From contig JAPOUR010000001.1 of NCBI GenBank assembly GCA_026708565.1, positions 1-33,794 on the forward strand: 33,794 nt of DNA, in the 5' to 3' direction. This DNA comes from Candidatus Dadabacteria bacterium (GTDB lineage: Bacteria > Desulfobacterota_D > UBA1144 > Nemesobacterales > Mycalebacteriaceae). The notes below the pieces were generated by a model. The model had not been told where the DNA came from, did no database searches, and was given only the letters and a program-made list of their open reading frames with translations. This document shows, piece after piece, positions 6,561 to 33,794 of this stretch (positions within the stretch are counted from its first letter, which is position 1; each line of letters begins with the position of its first letter). The position numbers and the translations under genes were made by a program.

Positions 6561-7985
6561 TCAGTCTCCCCACTCGCGCACGTCCACAAAGCGCCCCTCA
6601 ATCGCCGCCGCCGCCGCCATAACGGGGCTCGCGAGATGAGTGCGTCCGCCCTTGCCCTGACGCCCCTCAAAGTTTCTGTTGGACGTGCTTGCGCACCTCT
6701 CTCCGGGGGCGAGAATATCGGGATTCATTCCGAGGCACATGCTACATCCGGACTCGCGCCACTCAAAGCCCGCCTCTTTCAGTATTTTGTCTATCTCCAT
6801 TTCCTCCGCCTGTTTCTTGACGCTCTGAGAGCCCGGCACCACCATGGCGCGCACGCCTTCCGCCACTTTTTTGCCTTTAACAAGGCGCGCCACGGCGGCA
6901 AGGTCTTCTATGCGCGAGTTTGTGCATGAACCGACAAAAACCCTGTCTATTTTGATGTCTTTGATGGGCGTTCCGGGTTTGAGACCCATATACTCAAGCG
7001 CCCTCCGCACGGTGTCGCGCTGCTCGCCGGTTTGCTCGCTGTCAGGGTCGGGAACGCATGAGTTTATGTCCGCCACCATTCCGGGGTTTGTTCCCCATGT
7101 TACCTGAGGGGCAATCTCCGCCGCATCCATCACGAGGGTCTTGTCAAACGCCGCGTCCTCATCCGACACGCAGTCTTTCCAATCCTCAAGCGCCTTGTCA
7201 AGCATTTCGCCCGAAGGCGCATACCGCCTGCCCCGCGCATACTCAAAAGTCTTTTCGTCCGCGGCTATCATTCCCGCCTTCGCGCCCGCCTCTATGGACA
7301 TGTTGCACACGGTCATCCTCTCTTCCATTGAGAGGTCCCGGACGGCTTCGCCCGCGTATTCAACCGCAAATCCGGTCGCCCCGGCGGTTCCTATGCGGCC
7401 TATGACGGCGAGGATGATGTCCTTTGCCGTAACGCCCGTTCCCTTTTTGCCGTCAACCCTGATTTGAAAAGTCCGGGGGCGGGTCTGCCTGAGGCACTGG
7501 GTCGCAAGCACATGCTCAACCTCGCTTGTTCCGATTCCGAACGCCAGAGACCCGAACGCCCCGTGTGTGGAGGTGTGGCTGTCGCCGCAGACAATCGTCA
7601 TTCCCGGCTTTGTGAGGCCGAGTTCGGGTCCTATGACGTGAACAATGCCCTGAAGGTCTTCAATCCCCGCGGCGGGCGCGATGTCAAAAAGGGAGACGCC
7701 GAATTTCTGGCAGTTTTCCCTGAGCGCCTCAATCTGCCGCGCGCTGATCTCATCGTCTATGGGCGCGCCCCTCGGCGTTGTGGGCACGTTGTGGTCCATT
7801 GTGGCGAAAGTCAGGTCGGGGCGGCGCACCTTCCTGCCTTCAATTGAGAGGCCCTCAAACGCCTGAGGCGAAGTTACCTCGTGAACCAGATGAAGGTCTA
7901 TGTAGAGAATGTCGGGCTTTCCCTCTCCGCCCTCGCTCACGAGGTGGCGGTCCCATATTTTTTCAAGAAGTGTTTTTCCGGCCAT
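6561..7985 (-). CDS. leuC: 3-Isopropylmalate dehydratase large subunit
   Basis: The 474-residue aconitase-family large subunit, which carries the [4Fe-4S] cluster used to interconvert 2- and 3-isopropylmalate. The cluster ligands are Cys354 in VGSCTNSR and Cys414/Cys417 in [12 protein letters not shown]. Other family blocks are MDHNVPT (63-69), [13 protein letters not shown] (133-145) and NRNFEGRQG (437-445). Length is normal for bacterial LeuC. The ATG shares its last base pair step with the stop of the upstream coiled-coil gene (TGATG), so translation is probably coupled. No leuA or leuB lies in the window. Confidence 0.96.
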
Positions 7986-8488
7986 CAGGAGTTTTCGTCT
8001 TCTTTAAGAAATGCGGGAGTTTTGTAGGAGACATGCTGTTCCATTTTTGCCTCAACCCTTGCAAGCCGTTCGCCGAATTCCTCATTTCTTTCCCCGATTC
8101 GTTTCAGGACTTCATCTATTTTTCCGTCTATTACTTGAATTCTGCGCGCGTTGTCTTCAATTCCGCGCGCGTTGCTTGCAACCTTTTCTTCAATATTTCC
8201 GAATCTTCCTTCAATACTGCCGACTTTTTCTTCAACACTGCTGACTTTTCCCTCAACACTGCTGACTTTTTCTTCAATACCGCTGACTTTTCCCTCAATA
8301 CTGCTGACCTTTCCTTCAATACCGCCGACTCTTCCTTCAATATTTCCGACCTTTCCTTCAATACTGATGATCTTCCCTTCCATGCCGCTGACTTTTTCCT
8401 CAATACCGCCGACTTTCTCTTTGAGAGAATCAAACTCCGGAACAACCATGTCTTTCAGCAGTTCCCGCATGTCTTTTACAAAACTCAC
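7985..8488 (-). CDS. Heptad-repeat coiled-coil protein of unknown function
   Basis: A 167-residue protein dominated by a long coiled coil. The start is GTG at 8488, chosen because GGAG lies 6 nt upstream. An upstream in-frame ATG at 8566 would fall inside eno. After a short N-terminal helix (residues 1-25) come eleven consecutive near-identical heptads (26-102) of the form V-S/G-x-I/V-E-G/E-K. Val or Ile holds position a, Ile, Val or Met holds d, and charged residues hold e and g. A more degenerate coiled coil follows (103-155), then a short hydrophilic tail. There is no signal peptide or membrane segment. The beta-branched a/d core suggests a stable parallel oligomer, perhaps a trimer (inference). 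It sits between eno and leuC on the same strand and overlaps leuC by 1 nt. Function unknown. Confidence 0.8.
8183..8413 (-). repeat. Eleven tandem 21-bp units encoding coiled-coil heptads
   Basis: Eleven imperfect 21-bp direct repeats (231 bp) inside the coiled-coil gene. On the plus strand each unit has the form cttcaatactgctgactttt with substitutions at a few positions. Every unit encodes exactly one heptad and the frame never breaks, so unit number can vary by slippage or unequal recombination without frameshifting the protein. Confidence 0.9.
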
Positions 8489-8513
8489 TTTTTTCTCCGC
8501 AACCCCAATCCTA

Positions 8514-9788
8514 TCAGAAGTTTTCGTTACCGGCAAACACCGCCCGCTTGCCGAGTTCCTCCTCAATTCTGAGCAGGCGGTTGTATTTTGCGGTTCTTTC
8601 CCCCCTGCACGGCGCGCCGGTTTTTATGCGTCCGCAGCCCGCGGAAACCGCTATGTCCGCGATGGCGGCGTCCCCGGTCTCGCCGGAGCGGTGCGACACC
8701 ATGCGCGAGTATCCCGCCTCCTTCGCGCAAGCCATGGCGTCAAACGTTTCCGACAGAGTTCCTATCTGGTTTACCTTGATAAGGATTGAATTCCCCGCGC
8801 CGGTTTTTATGCCCTTCTCAAGACGCCGCCTGCTGGTGACGAACAGGTCATCCCCCACAATTTGAACCTTCCCCCCGATGCGGGACGTAACCTCGCGCCA
8901 GCCCTCCCAGTCGTTTTCGTCCATGGGGTCTTCAATGGACACTACGGGCCAGTTGTTCACCCATTTTTCATACATCTTTCCAAGGGCGGCGGATGAAAGC
9001 CGCGCCCGTCCGACCCTGTATTTGCCGCCGTCAAAAAACTCGCTCGCCGCCGCGTCCATTGCGAGAGACACCTGCGTTCCGGTTTTGTAGCCCGCCTTTT
9101 CCGCCGCTTCGGCCATAAACTCCATCGCCTGCTCGTTTGAGCGCAGGTTCGGGGCGAAGCCCCCCTCGTCTCCGACCGCCGTGGCAAGCCCCTTTGATTT
9201 CAGGAGCGATTTCAAACTGTGAAACACCTCAACCCCCGCCCGCAGCGCCTCCGAAAATGTTTTGAATCCGTGCGGAACAAGCATGAACTCCTGAATGTCC
9301 AGATTGTTGTCCGCGTGCGCGCCGCCGTTGATGATGTTCATAAACGGGACGGGCAGGCGCGGTTTGCCGCCGCTCATGCCTGAGAGGTGGCGGTAAAACG
9401 GCGCTTTTTCCGATGCCGCCGCCGCCCGCGCCGCCGCCAGAGAGACCCCTAAAATTGCGTTTGCGCCCATGCGCGACTTGGTTTTTGTTCCGTCCGCGCG
9501 AATCATCGCGCCGTCAACATCGGCTTGCCGCCGGGCGTCAATCCCCCTCACCGCCCGCGCGAGAATGCCGTTGACATTGCCCACCGCCTTAAGGACGCCC
9601 CTGCCGCCGTATCTGCTCTTTCTTGCCGAGTCTCTGAGTTCCCGCGCCTCGTATTTTCCGGTTGACGCCCCCGAAGGGACCGCCGCCCTGCCGAAAGAGC
9701 CGTCCGAACAGAGAACATCCACCTCAACGGTGGGATTTCCGCGCGAATCAAGAATCTCTCTCGCCTTTACGGTTTTAATTTTTGCCAT
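8514..9788 (-). CDS. eno: Enolase
   Basis: A 424-residue phosphopyruvate hydratase that interconverts 2-phosphoglycerate and phosphoenolpyruvate. Visible motifs are [10 protein letters not shown] (39-48), GGAHADNN (155-162), catalytic Glu208 in GDEGGFAPN, Mg ligands Asp245 (AMDAAASEF), Glu286 (SIEDP) and the GDD at 312-314, catalytic Lys338 in [13 protein letters not shown] (335-347) and [10 protein letters not shown] (364-373). The last block has Gly where Glu is more common (SGETED). The ribosome site is strong (AGGAGGAG, complement of 9796-9803) and lies inside the 3' end of the hemW-like gene, whose stop falls 14 nt into eno, so the two are probably coupled. Enolase is close to PTS regulators that ultimately use phosphoenolpyruvate. 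Confidence 0.97.
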
Positions 9789-25921: not shown

Positions 25922-26398
25922 TTACCTGTTTTTCTTGGGCCTGTCTTTTTCCTCCACATAGCCGGTGAGTTGCACTTTGCTGCGGACTTCGGGGGGCAGA
26001 TTGCTGAGGTCGGGCTTGGGCATGTCGGTTGAAAGGTCGCTTGTGAAAGAGAAAGAGGAGACCACTTTGTCCGCTTTTTTAGAGCCGCACGAGGGGCATT
26101 TGACCTTTTTTTCGTCCCCCTCCTCATAGATGAGTTCCGAAAACCTGAAAGCCGTTGTGTTCATAATGAGCAGAACCGAGCCGTCTTCGGAGTAGCGGGC
26201 GATGTCAAGCCCGCCTTCTTTGGGCTTGCCCGCGCCCGCCTCTATCTTCCCGCTTTTCAGGTTTATAATCTGCACGCTGTTGACGGCGGCGGTTTCCTTC
26301 ACAACCGCCCCCGCCGCTTTTTTGTCTTTCATCAGCCGTTTCACCGCCTTTTCAACGGCGTTTTTGCACGGGGCGCATTCGTATTCAAAGAGGGGCAT
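25922..26398 (-). CDS. FmdB-like split zinc-ribbon protein, copy B
   Basis: A 158-residue protein opening MPLFEYECAPC and carrying a second CPSCGSKK block, the start and end of the FmdB/regulatory zinc-ribbon pattern. The two CxxC knuckles (Cys8/Cys11 and Cys101/Cys104) are about 90 residues apart, where ordinary FmdB proteins have about 20-25. The insert holds a basic helix (KAVKRLMKDKK) and beta-rich segments (VNSVQIINL, SVLLIMNTTAFRFSELI). The basic, Pro-rich C-terminal tail ends EEKDRPKKNR. It is similar in layout and at scattered positions to copy A, which lies 12 nt upstream, so they are tandem paralogues. The function of this inserted form is unknown. FmdB itself is only a putative regulator. 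Confidence 0.72.
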   Translation of the reverse strand: MPLFEYECAPCKNAVEKAVKRLMKDKKAAGAVVKETAAVNSVQIINLKSGKIEAGAGKPKEGGLDIARYSEDGSVLLIMNTTAFRFSELIYEEGDEKKVKCPSCGSKKADKVVSSFSFTSDLSTDMPKPDLSNLPPEVRSKVQLTGYVEEKDRPKKNR

Positions 26399-26410
26399 TG
26401 TCGCTGTCGC

Positions 26411-26902
26411 CTACTGCTTGAAATACTGGTTCAGGTTGTCCTGCCCGACCCAGTTTTGCTGTTCCTCGTCTTTCTGGATTTTGTAGTCTTTGTGCCATCC
26501 GATATCGTCTCCGGGACCCGGCTCGCGGTCTCTCTTGTCAAAGATCGCCTTGAAGGTTGAAAACACCCTTATCGCCTTTTTGCTCCCGCAGGACGGGCAG
26601 GGCGGCGCGGGTCCGCCGACTTCCACAATCTCGCTGAATCTGAAATCTTTCAGTTCAAGATACAGTATGTTTCCGCCGTCAAGCGTATAGCGAAACCTTC
26701 GCGCCGCCCGCGAGCGGGTCTTTTCGCCGACTGAGAAAACCGGCGCCCCGTCTTTTTCTTTTGTAACCTCAATGTAGAGAAACCCCGGATTGCCTTTTGA
26801 GATTGCCGAGGCGTTTTTTTTGGTAAGACGGCGGACGAGGGCGGAGATGTCGCCGTTAAACTTTCCCGCGCACTGTTCACATTCGTACTCGTAAATGGGC
26901 AT
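26411..26902 (-). CDS. FmdB-like split zinc-ribbon protein, copy A
   Basis: A 163-residue protein opening MPIYEYECEQC (Cys8/Cys11), the classic FmdB start, with the second knuckle CPSCGSKK (Cys102/Cys105) followed by AIRVFSTF. The 90-residue spacing contains an insert with a basic helix (ALVRRLTKKN), FLYIEVTKEKDG, a basic stretch (RSRAARRFRY) and NILYLELKDFRFSEIVEVG. The D/A-FRFSE-I/L block just before the second knuckle is shared with copy B and corresponds to the F-E-V/E region of ordinary FmdB. The C-terminal tail is hydrophilic (DDIGWHKDYKIQKDEEQQN). It is first of the pair and is transcribed away from the DUF262 island. Confidence 0.72.
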   Translation of the reverse strand: MPIYEYECEQCAGKFNGDISALVRRLTKKNASAISKGNPGFLYIEVTKEKDGAPVFSVGEKTRSRAARRFRYTLDGGNILYLELKDFRFSEIVEVGGPAPPCPSCGSKKAIRVFSTFKAIFDKRDREPGPGDDIGWHKDYKIQKDEEQQNWVGQDNLNQYFKQ

Positions 26903-27109: not shown

Positions 27110-27145
27110 GAGATGGCTGAAAACAGATTTACAGGAGGTTTTGCT

Positions 27146-28276
27146 GTGACAGGTCACCCGCAAGTATTAGTTGACGAGCAAGAGATTCGCCTTGACGGAG
27201 ATGACACGAGTAGCGGTCAGGTCAACATAACAGAACCGTTTGACCCTACCAAAATCAGAGTTGAGACGAAAAACGCGCAGATGGACGCTCTCATCAAGCG
27301 GATCAAAAACGATGAGATTGATCTCAGTCCGGACTTTCAGCGTCAGGCCGTATGGAAAAATGAGGCAAAGAGCCGACTGATAGAATCTATGCTGATTAGG
27401 ATTCCGTTGCCCGCTTTTTACATGGATGCGAGCGATGACAGCAAGTGGCTGGTGGTGGACGGACTGCAACGTCTTACCGCAATCAAGGAGTTTGTTGTGG
27501 ACGGGTCGTTGTCCTTGACCGGATTGGAGTTTTTAACCGAGTATGATGGGGAAACATTCAGTGAACTCCCCCGCAGTTTGCAGCGCCGTATAGAGGAAAC
27601 AGACATTGTGCTGTATCTAATCCAGCCCCAAACGCCGCCAAAGGTGAAGTTTGATATATTCCGCCGAATCAATACCGGAGGCGAACCGTTGAGTTTACAG
27701 GAGATTCGCCATGCTCTTAATCAGGGAAAGGTCACGAAACTCCTGCCCCGTATGGTCAGTAACGAATTTAAGAGAGCCACGGCCCGAGGGGTATCTCCCA
27801 TACGAATGGATGACCGTGAGTGTGCGTTGCGATTTCTCGCCTTTACCTTGCATTCTCCGGATGACTACGAGGAAGATAACTTTGACCTGTTTCTCAACAA
27901 TACCATGTCCAAATTGAACGAGATGGACGACCTCAAGTTAAAAGGCTATGAAGAGTTGTTCAAAAAGACAATGGAGTGTGCCTGTTCAGTTTTCGGGGAC
28001 AGGGCTTTTCGTAAACAATACGAAGGTGTTGAACATCGTCACCCTGTGAACAAGGCGCTGTTTGAGGCGTGGAGTGTGAACATAGGGAGGCTGAGCGATG
28101 ACGAGCGACAGACCCTTATGGAAAAACGTGATGTACTGGTGGATAAATTCAAGAATTTGATGGATTCCGACAAAACCTTTGAATCCTCCGTTTCATACGG
28201 GACCGGATCAAAAAAGAATGTCCGCTACCGCTTCAACCGGATAGCCGAAATCATTCAAGAGACAATCAATGATTGA
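27146..28276 (+). CDS. DUF262 (ParB/GmrS-like) domain protein, island gene 1
   Basis: A 376-residue protein from GTG 27146, chosen because a perfect AGGAGG (27133-27138) sits 7 nt upstream. The in-frame ATG at 27113 has no good site. The DUF262 core is clear: IDLSPDFQRQAVW (59-71), the VVDGLQRLTAI motif (103-113, DGxQR) and DIFRRINTGGEPLSLQEIRHAL (170-191). DUF262 has a ParB/sulfiredoxin-like fold that binds or cleaves nucleotides and DNA in GmrSD- and SspE-type defence proteins. Here the C-terminal half is helical and no DUF1524 HNH nuclease motif is visible. The gene has lower GC than its flanks and overlaps the downstream ATPase gene by 8 nt. Confidence 0.88.
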   Translation: MTGHPQVLVDEQEIRLDGDDTSSGQVNITEPFDPTKIRVETKNAQMDALIKRIKNDEIDLSPDFQRQAVWKNEAKSRLIESMLIRIPLPAFYMDASDDSKWLVVDGLQRLTAIKEFVVDGSLSLTGLEFLTEYDGETFSELPRSLQRRIEETDIVLYLIQPQTPPKVKFDIFRRINTGGEPLSLQEIRHALNQGKVTKLLPRMVSNEFKRATARGVSPIRMDDRECALRFLAFTLHSPDDYEEDNFDLFLNNTMSKLNEMDDLKLKGYEELFKKTMECACSVFGDRAFRKQYEGVEHRHPVNKALFEAWSVNIGRLSDDERQTLMEKRDVLVDKFKNLMDSDKTFESSVSYGTGSKKNVRYRFNRIAEIIQETIND

Positions 28277-29375
28277 CTCCATGCGCATCAAAAACTTCAA
28301 GTGCTTCAGGGATGAATCTGTTTCCCTAAAGCCGCTGACAGTGCTTTCCGGTATAAACGGCATGGGCAAGAGCACTTTTATACAAATCCTGTTGTTTTTG
28401 CGACAATGGGGGTTTCAGTTGTCCGGCGACAATCACGCCAGAGCAAATTTGAACGGGCCTCTTGTCAACTTTGGCTATACGGAAGATGTGTTGCATGAGA
28501 AGGCTGAAGAAAAAGGGGAAGACATCATTCTTGCCATAGGTGGAGACGGGAGCGAGAAAGAATACCGTTTCAGTTGTCCGGATGGGGAAAAATGGATTGA
28601 AAGCCTCTCCGGCAAGCCTTTGGATACAAGCGATAGTCTTTTAGGGGAAAGTTTCTATTATCTTGGAGCTGAAAGAATCGGTCCGCGGTTGTCTTTCCTG
28701 TCATCTAATCTTGGAGGCGGGGAGAAAAGAATCAATGCAATAGGAAACAGCGGCGAGTATTGCGCATGGCTGTTAGCTAATGCTGAACGGGATAGTGTTG
28801 AGAATGACTCGCGGATTCATCCCGATGAATCTATATATGAATTGAGGGCGCAAGTTGAGGCATGGCTGTCAGAGATTGGCCAATCCGCCAGAATACACCT
28901 TAACAACCACAAGGATATGGACAGGGTAAGCCTCCAGTTTTCTTTCGTTCGTGACCGCATCACCAGTCGTTATTACCGCCCCACTAATGTGGGATTCGGC
29001 CTTACCTATGCGCTCCCAATCTTTGTTGCCGGTTTGCTTTCAAAGAAAGGAGGTCTGGTAATCATAGAAAATCCTGAGGCACATTTGCACCCGAAAGGTC
29101 AGTCCGTTCTGGGAAAATTTCTTTCAGGAGTGGCGAATAGCGGAGTTCAAGTCATTGTGGAGACTCATAGCGACCATCTGTTGAACGGCATCAGGATTTC
29201 TGCAAAAAACGGAGAAATAGATTCGGAATCTGTGGCTCTGCACTTTTTTCAGAGAGATGAGGGGGACCAGTCCACCAAGATAGTCACGCCAAAAATGGAC
29301 AAAAATGGCCGCTTGGATGAATGGCCTGAAGGATTTTTTGACGAATGGGAAAGCAGCCTGACAGAATTGCTGTAG
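28269..29375 (+). CDS. AAA/ABC-like ATPase with DUF3696 tail (COG4938 type), island gene 2
   Basis: A 368-residue predicted ATPase of the RecF/SMC-like ABC class. The N-terminus IKNFKCFRDESVSLKPLTV is followed by Walker A SGINGMGKST (27-36, Lys34). The signature-like block is NVGFGLTYALPI (240-251), Walker B is LVIIENPEAHLHP (263-275) and the switch is VETHSDHLL (297-305). The last 25 residues (KNGRLDEWPEGFFDEW) are the DUF3696 end. No TOPRIM or nuclease domain is attached, unlike OLD or GajA proteins. The start is ATG 28269, overlapping the DUF262 stop. ATG 28281 (MRIKNF) is also possible. Related ATPases occur in several defence systems, usually energising or gating a partner effector. Confidence 0.9.
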   Translation: MIDSMRIKNFKCFRDESVSLKPLTVLSGINGMGKSTFIQILLFLRQWGFQLSGDNHARANLNGPLVNFGYTEDVLHEKAEEKGEDIILAIGGDGSEKEYRFSCPDGEKWIESLSGKPLDTSDSLLGESFYYLGAERIGPRLSFLSSNLGGGEKRINAIGNSGEYCAWLLANAERDSVENDSRIHPDESIYELRAQVEAWLSEIGQSARIHLNNHKDMDRVSLQFSFVRDRITSRYYRPTNVGFGLTYALPIFVAGLLSKKGGLVIIENPEAHLHPKGQSVLGKFLSGVANSGVQVIVETHSDHLLNGIRISAKNGEIDSESVALHFFQRDEGDQSTKIVTPKMDKNGRLDEWPEGFFDEWESSLTELL

Positions 29376-29384
29376 GATGATTTC

Positions 29385-30335
29385 ATGGATCAGATATTCA
29401 ATGAACTTTCCGCCAATGGTAGTTACGATTCAAAATACAGCGCCTGTGCGGGTATGGAGAATCTTGCGTGCCTGTCTTTAGAGATGGCGAAGATTGGATT
29501 TAGCGGGAAACTGCGGACGGTTCAAAACTTCCACCAACTCCCCATTGCTCCTGACTTTACGATTTCTGATTGGGCTAATGAAAAGAAAGGGGTAGACAAG
29601 GAAAAACGACAATGGCTTCTTTTCTCCGCCACTCAGCATCCTTACATTGAGGATTTCATGGAGAAGGAGCAGGACAATAGTCTTGTAGAGTTCAAATTTG
29701 ACTGCAAGAAGTGTCTGGGTCTCGGTTTGGCATTTCTGTGGGATTGCGGCGCTCTTTCGCTGGATGGGGATGAGCGATTCAGGCAGGACGCTGTTGAGGC
29801 ATCTTTGTATCAGATTGACAGTAACGACAAGGAGTCTACGGAAACGGTGAAAATCCTGTCATGGTATTCACGGGAACAATTGCCTTCCATAAGAGATGTT
29901 CTTGTCAAAAGCGAGAGAAAATCCATATCAGACGGCGAGGGGTTGCTTTCAAAATCGTTGTCGCTATTTCCCGCGCTATCCATTGGTCAGAAAGCGTCTA
30001 AGCAATTACAAACTTTCAAAGGCAGTGAACAGCATTTTCAAGAAATTATCCGCCATTTTAGTGTGTTGAATGAAACAATGCGGAATTGGAAGTCTGGGCC
30101 GTTTGCTCCGCAGGGAGTAAGTTGGTCTCCTGAGTCTCAACCCACTATGGAACAATTTGCCAAAGAGCGCGAGTTTATATGTTCTGACAGAGAGAAGCGG
30201 ACATTCAGTCTTCACTCAAGGATTAGCTCCGCCAATGCCAATCTCCGCATTTACTTTCTCCCCGATACAAGTAATAAAACCGTCCATATCGGCTATGTCG
30301 GAACACACCTTCCTACGGTAAAACACAGGACCTGA
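29385..30335 (+). CDS. Protein of unknown function, island gene 3 (candidate effector or accessory)
   Basis: A 316-residue protein that I cannot assign to a named domain. It follows the ATPase by 9 nt with AGGATG as ribosome site, so it belongs to the same operon. There is no signal peptide or membrane segment. Three parts can be seen. The N-terminal third ends in a PIAPDFTISDWANEKKGVDK block and a short ATQHPYIEDF motif. The middle (about 100-200) contains FKFDCKKCLGLGLAFLWDCGALSL, with Cys residues and a hydrophobic core. The C-terminal third has RTFSLHSRISSANANLRIYF and HIGYVGTHLPT. The basic R-x-Y-F plus GYVG.HL ending is compact and could be a small catalytic or binding unit, but no function is established. 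Confidence 0.85.
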   Translation: MDQIFNELSANGSYDSKYSACAGMENLACLSLEMAKIGFSGKLRTVQNFHQLPIAPDFTISDWANEKKGVDKEKRQWLLFSATQHPYIEDFMEKEQDNSLVEFKFDCKKCLGLGLAFLWDCGALSLDGDERFRQDAVEASLYQIDSNDKESTETVKILSWYSREQLPSIRDVLVKSERKSISDGEGLLSKSLSLFPALSIGQKASKQLQTFKGSEQHFQEIIRHFSVLNETMRNWKSGPFAPQGVSWSPESQPTMEQFAKEREFICSDREKRTFSLHSRISSANANLRIYFLPDTSNKTVHIGYVGTHLPTVKHRT

Positions 30336-31144: not shown

Positions 31145-33794
31145 TCAAAACCCAAACCGCAAACCCACATTGGCGCGGTATTCCATTATCTCCGAACCCA
31201 GAGAAACGGCGGCTTCGCCGAAAACTCCGCGCTCTTTGCCCCATGTGTACGAACCGCCCACACTCAAATCTCCGGCAATTGATTCAAGTTCACTGGTCAA
31301 ATTGTCAGTATGAGTACTGCTCCCCCTGCGGACTCTCACAGCCGTCTCGCCGTCCAGAGGGACGAGCAGGTTCAGCCCCGCGTAAACATTGCCTTTGCCC
31401 GCCTCACTGTCGCCGTATTCGCTTTCGCTTCCAAGCGCCTTTAACTCCTTGTCCACAAACACGCCCACACGCCCGGTAAGGGCTGCGCCGTCTTCAAGAG
31501 AGGCGGTTTCCGTGCCGAGTGTATTGCGGAAGTCGTCAAAATCCGCCGTAGTCCAGATTACCTGCGCCTGAGGGGTAACATTGACGCCGCTCAGGGGGTA
31601 GCGGTATCCCGCCTCTCCCGATACGCTGAAAGCGGTTGCGTCACTGCCGGAAACCGACAGTTGGGAGGAAGTCAGGTCGCTGGAAAAGAGGGCGTATTGA
31701 AACTGCCCGTCCGCGTAAAAGTTGCCCTGTTCCATAGTGGCGGTGGCGGCAACGGAGTAGCCGGTGGTTTCTATCTCGCCGTCTCCGGGCGCGATATCGG
31801 TGTTAGCCAGTCCGAACCAGACATTGCCTCCGAGTGTCAGCCCCTTCACTTCTTCAAAGGGATAGTCCGCGCCGAAGCGGATGCGTGTGTCTTGAATGTC
31901 ATACTCGCTTTTGGCTGTGGATACGCCCGGTTCAAACGAGGCGACAGACCCTTCAACCCGTCCCCATACGCCCACGCCTTTTTCGTCCTGCCAGACACGC
32001 CCCTCAAGACGCTGTTGCATTGAGGGAAGGGAGGAAAGTTGCGCAAGCGTTGCGGGGTAACTTTCTATTACTTTTCCGACATCGCCGAAGCCGTCTCTTA
32101 TGAAAGCACAAGCACCCGCCGCCGAGTCGCAGTTGAGTCTGAAAGCGTAGAATCCGGAGTCTGCGCTTCCGGTGAAATGGTTTGCCGCATTTGCCGCATC
32201 TGCGCCAAATAAGCTGATGACATTGTGAGTCCTCGCCGCCGCATTCGGGTTGCCGTGGATGATGAGGTCAATCGGGGTTGTGCCGGTTACCTCGTTGGTG
32301 ATGTTGAGGATTGAGAATCCTCCAGTCGCAAAGTTGGCGCTCATAACCAGCCGTCCGCCGTTGCCGGCATAGTTGCCGCTTATGGTAACACTCGCATCTT
32401 CATCAAGAAACAGAGCGCCATCGTCAAGGGAGAAACTTTCATCAACAGTTACCGAGCCGTCAATTGCCCATGTATTGGGTCCGGTTTTCCGCACTGTGTC
32501 AAAGCCGCTCAGTTGTCCCAAGTTAAACGAGGGGGTATTGGCGAACGGCGCGGTGGCGGCGGCAAGTTCAAATGTCGTGTTGTCTCCGGCTGCCGTTATA
32601 GCGCCTATGATATTTGCGCCCGGGCGCAGTCTGACCAGAGCGCTGTTGCTTGCGCCGGTGCGGACGGCGTGTTCGCCCCCTCTAACTGTTCCCGCAATAT
32701 CCACGACAATATCTCCGAGGTTTCCATTGCTTCTGCTGATTCCGGCAAAAATGCCTGTTCGCATGGCGGCGGGGGCATTGACCGATGCGCCCGGGGCAAC
32801 ATTAACTGTTATATCACCCGTGCCTTTATGATCCAGAGCGACGCCGCCTAAACTTGCGCTTGTGATGTTGCCGGTAACATCAATGTTCAGGGCGGAAGAG
32901 TTCACCCCCGTTCTGGCGTCAACGCCGCGCCCTATGGAAGTCCCGGTAGTGTTAATGTCTCCGCCGATGGTGATATTGAGGTCGCCTCTGGTGTCGTGTC
33001 TGGCGAGAATTCCGCCGCTTTGCGCAGAACCCGAAGCGTTGATGTTGCCCATCGCCATAATGTTCATGCCGCCCGGAGGATTGCCGGTGTGACCGATTGT
33101 GTTGGCGGCGGCGTCAATGCCCCAAGCGCCGGTTGTCATAATGTTGGCGTTGGGGGCGAGGAAGATTGACAGTTCGCCTCTGCCGAGATGCTCGGCTTTT
33201 ATGCCCAAACTTCCGCTTCTTATGTCGCCTGTGGCGTTGATGGTTACCGAGGACTGGCTTATGCCTGTGGTTTCCACATCAATGCCGTTATCCACAGCGT
33301 TGATATTGCCGCCGGAGTTAATTACCACCGCGCCCAAGCCCTGATGCCCGATGTAGATGCCCCGGTTTCCCGCCGTGATAGCGCCGGTGGCATTGACGGT
33401 TATGCTATCGGCGGCGGCGGTGGTAATTAAGTCAATGCCGTCCTGTGCGGCGTTGAGAGCCGCCGGAGTAGTTAATTGCCCCGTGCCATCAAGTATCTGC
33501 ACTCCGATGGCGTCTGTGCCTCTGGAGCTAACAGTACCGCCGATGGTGGCATCAAGACTGCCGCCCGGTACAGTAACCAGAGAGAGGGCTCTGCCTGTCG
33601 CTACATTCATACCGAAACCGGGTTCGGTGGTTACCACAAACCTCTCGCCATGAGTGGCGGAAGGGGATTGGGTCGTGTCCATAGTCGGGTCTGCCGCGCC
33701 GCTGCATGTCCATGCGCCGGGTGTGCCTGAGACTCGCTCACACATTCCCGCCGATGCCTTTTCGCCCGCGCCCGGAAACAGAGCCGTCCCCAGC
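31145..33794 (-). CDS. Autotransporter adhesin-type protein (5' end beyond window)
   Basis: The frame is open from the window edge to TGA at 31145, at least 883 codons. The first in-window Met is at 33745, but upstream codons continue in frame (ALFPGAGEKASAG), so the signal peptide lies outside. The passenger (about the first 590 residues) is a Gly/Asn/Thr-rich parallel beta-helix with repeated strands of the form SVTINATGDI.SG..GI and G.GDITV, alternating with AGI/IDA loops. The last 270 residues form the 12-strand beta-barrel (from GVWGRVEGSVASFEPG) and end YRANVGLRFGF with the terminal Phe needed for outer-membrane insertion. It is secreted by type Va and probably displayed on the surface. 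It converges on the crotonase gene with a 3-nt gap. Confidence 0.9.
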   Translation of the reverse strand, partial: LGTALFPGAGEKASAGMCERVSGTPGAWTCSGAADPTMDTTQSPSATHGERFVVTTEPGFGMNVATGRALSLVTVPGGSLDATIGGTVSSRGTDAIGVQILDGTGQLTTPAALNAAQDGIDLITTAAADSITVNATGAITAGNRGIYIGHQGLGAVVINSGGNINAVDNGIDVETTGISQSSVTINATGDIRSGSLGIKAEHLGRGELSIFLAPNANIMTTGAWGIDAAANTIGHTGNPPGGMNIMAMGNINASGSAQSGGILARHDTRGDLNITIGGDINTTGTSIGRGVDARTGVNSSALNIDVTGNITSASLGGVALDHKGTGDITVNVAPGASVNAPAAMRTGIFAGISRSNGNLGDIVVDIAGTVRGGEHAVRTGASNSALVRLRPGANIIGAITAAGDNTTFELAAATAPFANTPSFNLGQLSGFDTVRKTGPNTWAIDGSVTVDESFSLDDGALFLDEDASVTISGNYAGNGGRLVMSANFATGGFSILNITNEVTGTTPIDLIIHGNPNAAARTHNVISLFGADAANAANHFTGSADSGFYAFRLNCDSAAGACAFIRDGFGDVGKVIESYPATLAQLSSLPSMQQRLEGRVWQDEKGVGVWGRVEGSVASFEPGVSTAKSEYDIQDTRIRFGADYPFEEVKGLTLGGNVWFGLANTDIAPGDGEIETTGYSVAATATMEQGNFYADGQFQYALFSSDLTSSQLSVSGSDATAFSVSGEAGYRYPLSGVNVTPQAQVIWTTADFDDFRNTLGTETASLEDGAALTGRVGVFVDKELKALGSESEYGDSEAGKGNVYAGLNLLVPLDGETAVRVRRGSSTHTDNLTSELESIAGDLSVGGSYTWGKERGVFGEAAVSLGSEIMEYRANVGLRFGF

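Follow-up and report, generated by a model that had tools for sequence, protein, structure and literature searches.

Introduction

The FmdB proteins are small, occur widely and have hardly been characterized, and of old they have been annotated as putative regulators. Ordinary members that we examined carry two cysteine half-knuckles separated by a short loop of 15-19 residues: 15 in the one such protein of our source genome and 17-19 in the proteins examined from other phyla. Ruc (Rv0991c), a redox-regulated chaperone of M. tuberculosis, coordinates one zinc through C8, C11, C29 and C32 and loses it on oxidation, and its chaperone activity depends on a disordered tail (PMC7448276). An FmdB form carrying CxxU (a selenoprotein) has hinted at thiol redox chemistry (PMC2398784), and a list of candidate essential-domain genes in Burkholderia includes one FmdB gene (PMC8770471).

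Here we describe two adjacent genes, A and B, in a window of 33,794 nucleotides (the whole stretch of DNA that was analyzed) from a genome of Candidatus Dadabacteria. This phylum is mostly uncultured.

Two split zinc ribbons in tandem

The paralogous tandem reading frames put forward in the original prediction were recovered on the minus strand, 12 bp apart (Table 1); their products are 33% identical over 132 aa (E 1e-17), and the two genes probably share one transcript. The prediction had also called both proteins FmdB-like. Indeed, both pass the curated cut-offs of Zn_ribbon_8 (PF09723) and CxxC_CxxC_SSSS (TIGR02605), with 35.1 and 40.8 bits against a cut-off of 34.4 and with 39.3 and 36.1 bits against 31.3, and each match falls into two stretches. 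In the whole-genome scan PF09723 covers profile positions 1-16 and 14-41 in A and 1-21 and 22-41 in B; the match is interrupted at profile position 16-21, and the stretch after the break lies ~70 residues beyond the N-terminal one. The CxxC pairs are ~90 residues apart in A and in B, as had been predicted, and the short loop of ordinary members is absent from both. The 20-25 residues assumed beforehand for those members were an overestimate, and from the measured spacing the insert in A and B comes to ~71-74 residues instead of 70.

Like the FmdB family, A and B start with MP[IL][YF]E[YF]xCxxC and have a second CxxC followed by the S-S-F strand. They differ from it in the insert of 71-74 residues between the knuckles, in their long conserved tails, in always occurring as a tandem pair, and in the second knuckle of B, which is often rebuilt. 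Judged by sequence, they are a split variant of the FmdB zinc ribbon and not standard members of the family. Pfam and NCBIfam contain no model that spans the insert or either protein as a whole, and a PDB sequence search with the A and B profiles matched no chain. The split architecture, the phylum-wide pair and the secondary absence of the insert in B were not found in the libraries or literature searched. The suggestion of an unusual, perhaps undescribed architecture kept in two copies is supported by this lack of Pfam, NCBIfam and PDB sequence matches and by the near-universal presence of the pair in Dadabacteria.

Table 1. Features of the A-B gene pair, in coordinates of the window
Feature	Position	Strand	Length	Description or basis
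Gene A	26411..26902	-	163 aa	FmdB-type zinc ribbon with insert
A first half-knuckle C8-x-x-C11	26870..26881	-		Sequence; CxxC in 44/44 A orthologs
A inserted alpha/beta lobe, ~residues 13-86	26645..26866	-		AlphaFold; homologous to B insert
A second half-knuckle C102-P-S-C105	26588..26599	-		Sequence; CPxC or CPxxKxC in orthologs
A C-terminal tail, conserved, WHxDYKxQKDEE..WVGQDxLNQYF type	26414..26557	-		Alignment, low dN/dS
A-B spacer	26399..26410	.	12 bp	Both genes on the same strand
Gene B	25922..26398	-	158 aa	FmdB-type zinc ribbon with insert
B first half-knuckle C8-x-x-C11	26366..26377	-		Sequence
B inserted alpha/beta lobe, ~residues 13-84	26147..26362	-		AlphaFold, pLDDT ~90
B second half-knuckle C101-P-S-C104	26087..26098	-		Sequence; remodelled in other lineages
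B C-terminal tail SDLSTDMPKPDLSNLPPxVR..YxEEKDRPKKNR	25925..26050	-		Alignment

Predicted fold and potential metal ligands

The AlphaFold models (pLDDT 70 for A and 80 for B, with ~90 in the B insert) both have three ribbon strands flanking a self-contained H-H-E-E-E-E module. In B the strands span residues 3-8, 85-89 and 109-112, with the confident lobe between them. The elements of the lobe are H9-24, H28-37, E41-48, E54-59, E67-73 and E78-85 in A and H9-24, H26-35, E39-46, E51-57, E64-69 and E75-81 in B; according to these models the insert is a compact two-helix, four-strand lobe. The shared layout that had been noted for the two inserts is borne out by both models and by the homology of the inserts (hhalign, 61 columns, P 7e-7; unrelated controls 0.06 or worse), except for the 'FRFSE' block, which is the ribbon's own second strand and no part of the insert. 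In both models C11 stands at a helix start, and knuckle 1 as predicted departs from the standard zinc knuckle.

Each of the 44 A and 44 B proteins has four potential metal ligands, as FmdB does: four or more Cys are spread over its two half-knuckles, except that B of G017 has 3 Cys and 1 His. Knuckle 2 takes at least five patterns (CPxC, CxC, CPxxKxC, CxCC and xxCC), and in B of G053 C11 is lost and an extra Cys is present in the CPCC of the other half. We consider it likely that the two half-knuckles form one metal site, because the ligand count is kept though knuckle 2 is rebuilt, because AlphaFold retains three ribbon strands around a separate lobe, and because the insert-free B orthologs described below are ordinary ribbons. 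One could argue instead that the ribbon is a relic, that the insert does the work of the protein and that the knuckles have ceased to share a metal, which would agree with the irregular second knuckle of B in many lineages (CxC, CxCC, xxCC) and with the placement of C11 inside a helix. However, 88 of 88 proteins retain four potential ligands, and the insert-free B proteins have a textbook ribbon, the reverse of what a relic would lead one to expect, and we regard this reading as quite improbable.

The second knuckle of B has been rebuilt lineage by lineage (CKNNNSH, CxCC, xxCC), at locus L019 of G017 and at loci L052-L057 of family f8, and in family f8 A has CPxxKxC; these ligand patterns are unusual for a zinc ribbon.

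Comparison of the lobe with known folds

No Pfam family matches the insert consistently (hmmscan). In Foldseek searches Cache/PDC-type sensor domains ranked at the top for both models, most clearly for B. Sensor chains of KinD matched the B model with weak E-values of 0.013-0.06, probability 0.97-1.00 and TM 0.21-0.27, the best having E 0.013, probability 1.00 and rmsd 3-5 A over ~55-64 columns, and DraK and CqsR ranked below. Next to this weak structural similarity stand the differences from KinD, DraK and CqsR: the insert is much smaller and shows no sequence match to them, no signal peptide and no identified ligand-pocket motif. At most, the predicted lobe has a PAS/Cache/profilin-like alpha/beta shape.

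Roadblock/LC7 (PF03259) was considered as the family of the insert, since the insert has a similar beta-hairpin motif and HBXIP came up once among the matches of the A model (E 0.11, with a TM of 0.50 on the target). It was rejected: the profile comparison is unsupportive (hhalign P 0.047 over 23 columns for the B insert, not significant; unrelated controls 0.13 or worse), hmmscan of the A and B inserts gave no match to PF03259, and no Robl_LC7 was found in Dadabacteria. The viral structure library yielded no credible match, and chains of ribosomal S3 were matched by the A model only, with low probability. The near-invariant positions common to both inserts are few (G59, Y72 and I44 in A numbering) and look structural, which makes it unlikely that the insert is an enzyme.

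These comparisons bear on the proposal that the pair regulates transcription or translation, the ribbon binding nucleic acid or the transcription machinery and the lobe sensing a ligand. The old annotation of FmdB, the weak similarity in fold to ligand-sensing Cache/PAS-type domains and the weak, low-probability match of the A lobe alone to S3 would fit such a regulator, but no nucleic-acid-binding domain was found in A or B, none of the fold matches reaches an E-value as low as 0.01, and the good matches among them span only ~55-70 residues. We hold a regulator to be improbable. Less probable still is a phylum-specific heteromeric intracellular sensor with a minimal Cache/PAS-like lobe set in a zinc ribbon and with A and B as its two halves, in which exposure of the tails would depend jointly on a ligand of the lobe and on the metal or redox state of the clasp of four Cys.

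Occurrence and evolutionary history

Matches to gene A were obtained in 54 of the 61 genomes from within and around Dadabacteria; the match in G008 is only a weak piece of FmdB, and that in G011 is a fragment at a contig end. Orthologs of A are full-length at 49-74% identity across the phylum. The B profile was matched in 53 of 58 Dadabacteria genomes (G011 only as a fragment), and the pair is present in ~52 of the 58. In all 44 pairs examined in detail A precedes B on one strand with a gap of 3-27 bp. The start codon of A is GTG and not ATG in 13 of 44 A genes, those of genus g6 (e.g. L023, L024), and searches limited to ATG can miss them.

A combined A and B profile run against 387 genomes, of which ~330 were from outside Dadabacteria and form a sample and no census, gave full-length matches in Dadabacteria only. 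Outside the phylum only ordinary FmdB pieces were matched (profile positions 1-30 or 85-120), and a second survey with another center, whose outside sample overlaps that of the first, had the same outcome. Ordinary FmdB proteins are also present in Dadabacteria. Viral contigs were considered as a source of relatives and rejected, as none matched.

In the tree, A and B form two separate groups (support 98/96), each including every Dadabacteria family sampled, and the duplication is therefore older than the radiation of the phylum. Since the inserts of A and B are homologous, a single insertion preceding the duplication would be the simplest account. Whole-gene dN/dS is 0.02-0.19 for A and 0.05-0.24 for B (pairs where computable), that of the insert is usually < 0.25 (single-region values are noisy from small counts), and that of the A tail is 0.00-0.08 in all pairs computed; from these rates both inserts are under purifying selection. 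One would argue that frameshifted or mis-assembled FmdB genes could give such an architecture, given that the assemblies are fragmented and that B is broken in one relative (G013). However, the same two genes are intact in 44 genomes, the architecture is kept across the phylum and dN/dS is well below 1; chance or a decaying frame is refuted by these data, and we give it a negligible probability.

B proteins without the insert

In three assemblies (G005, G019 and G022, the last two of one genus) B is only 87 residues long and lacks the insert (L064:4515-4775, L080:4526-4786, L081:2309-2569). It is still placed after A, carries the B-specific tail and has normal spacing, C8-x2-C11-x18-C30-x2-C33, close to C8/C11/C29/C32 of Ruc. 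Among the 387 genomes, matches through the B tail were to Dadabacteria B proteins only. The B gene of G013 (L085:2678-3119) has a partly deleted insert and a frameshift, giving two overlapping ORFs, and may represent erosion under way or an assembly fault; among relatives of the same family, B either carries the complete insert or lacks it.

Loss of the insert from B is our best reading. G005 and G019 cluster in the A tree with G025, a genome in which B retains the insert. We rejected an ancestral insert-free B, because every A protein has the insert, as has B in the remaining families, the most distant among them, the inserts of A and B are homologous, and the insert-free proteins bear the B tail directly after A. 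It may also be that gene conversion gave B the core of an ordinary FmdB protein; the core tree, which puts these short sequences (38% of columns filled) outside the B clade, is consistent with this.

Genomic neighborhood

The neighboring genes, named by reading their sequences, were surveyed in 18 relatives. Across families a divergent enoyl-CoA hydratase, Era and AspS lie upstream of the pair and HisI/HisE downstream, besides others, and no chaperone gene was among the neighbors. The genes sucA/sucB follow the pair only in the source genome and its genus sister, and an operon with sucA/sucB as a general linkage was rejected for this reason. By its gene order the pair reads as a free-standing two-gene unit.

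Three further loci of the window were noted. A complete three-gene cassette on the plus strand (27113-30335) matches PADLOC NsnA, NsnB and NsnC (E 1e-143, 4e-116 and 4e-59), with Pfam matches to GmrSD_N in its first gene and AAA_15/DUF3696 in its second. It separates gene A from the enoyl-CoA hydratase gene, and since these two adjoin each other in the sister genome G001 and in most relatives, this Nsn defense cassette looks inserted here in the source genome. On the minus strand, 7985-8566 encodes a 193-aa heptad-like repeat protein (GxIEGKVSxIEGKV...) with many weak coiled-coil matches, directly upstream of a leuC-like gene. Also on the minus strand, 31145-33745 encodes an 866-residue protein with a weak match to an autochaperone domain (PF18883), probably an autotransporter; being near the contig end, its true start may fall outside the given ORF.

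Discussion

The overall explanation that we rank first, though tentatively, is that the A:B pair is a redox/zinc-gated chaperone-like adaptor built from a split ribbon. One ancestral FmdB-type zinc ribbon would have gained a ~72-residue two-helix/four-strand domain between the first knuckle and the second strand before Dadabacteria diversified, and duplication after the insertion would have given A and B, its cytosolic descendants, as two subunits. The ribbon would fold around the insert, strand 1 with C8/C11 and strands 2 and 3 with the second knuckle closing on one zinc, while the insert would form a lobe of its own, held at the base by the metal site as by a clasp, and the A lobe would pair with the B lobe. 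Oxidation or loss of zinc would then open the clasp and free the conserved C-terminal tails for client binding, as in Ruc.

A kept tandem order, spacing and co-occurrence are the usual pattern for subunits of one complex. Order and spacing are kept in 44 of 44 pairs and the pair in ~52 of 58 genomes, which argues for such subunits, and we judge the chances of an A:B heteromer to be even.

The redox-gated holdase or adaptor role is drawn by analogy to Ruc, and we regard it as possible but doubtful. Ruc anticorrelates with Hsp33 in some lineages. Hsp33 (PF01430) was found neither in the A and B proteins nor in any of the 58 Dadabacteria genomes searched; however, many bacteria lack Hsp33, and its absence is weak evidence. 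Ruc, the CxxU form of FmdB and the absence of Hsp33 together weakly suggest a thiol/zinc switch. The likeness to Ruc lies in the zinc ribbon with its four Cys, of which C8 and C11 coincide in position, and in the low-structure tail that follows. In contrast, Ruc has 17 residues between its knuckles and is a single gene linked to chaperone genes, whereas the Dadabacteria pair has an inserted lobe and conserved tails and, in the 18 relatives, lacks the linkage to chaperone or protease genes. The tails of Ruc are disordered and variable; those of A and B are of low AlphaFold confidence yet conserved in sequence, which fits a specific partner better than a general holdase. Additionally, the ordinary FmdB proteins of Dadabacteria may hold the Ruc-like function instead, and the fact that B can be without the insert implies that the lobe is not always needed.

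Ranked second, after the redox/zinc-gated adaptor, is a dedicated assembly or docking factor, in which ribbons and lobes would be a scaffold, the tails would bind one client and the zinc would be structural with no switch. The very low dN/dS of the A tail, the phylum-specific sequences of both tails, and a ligand geometry that is rebuilt while the count is kept, as expected for a structural site, all favor such a factor. However, no client is suggestively conserved beside the pair, sucA/sucB being confined as described above, and we regard this reading as possible but doubtful.

The ribbon of A and B is of a known kind; what is new, against the libraries and literature searched, is the split architecture and the phylum-wide tandem pair. 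The two proteins mark a gap in the Pfam and NCBIfam coverage of Dadabacteria, and their B genes offer a natural series of inserted, eroding and insert-free forms, with which the roles of the ribbon and the lobe could be told apart.
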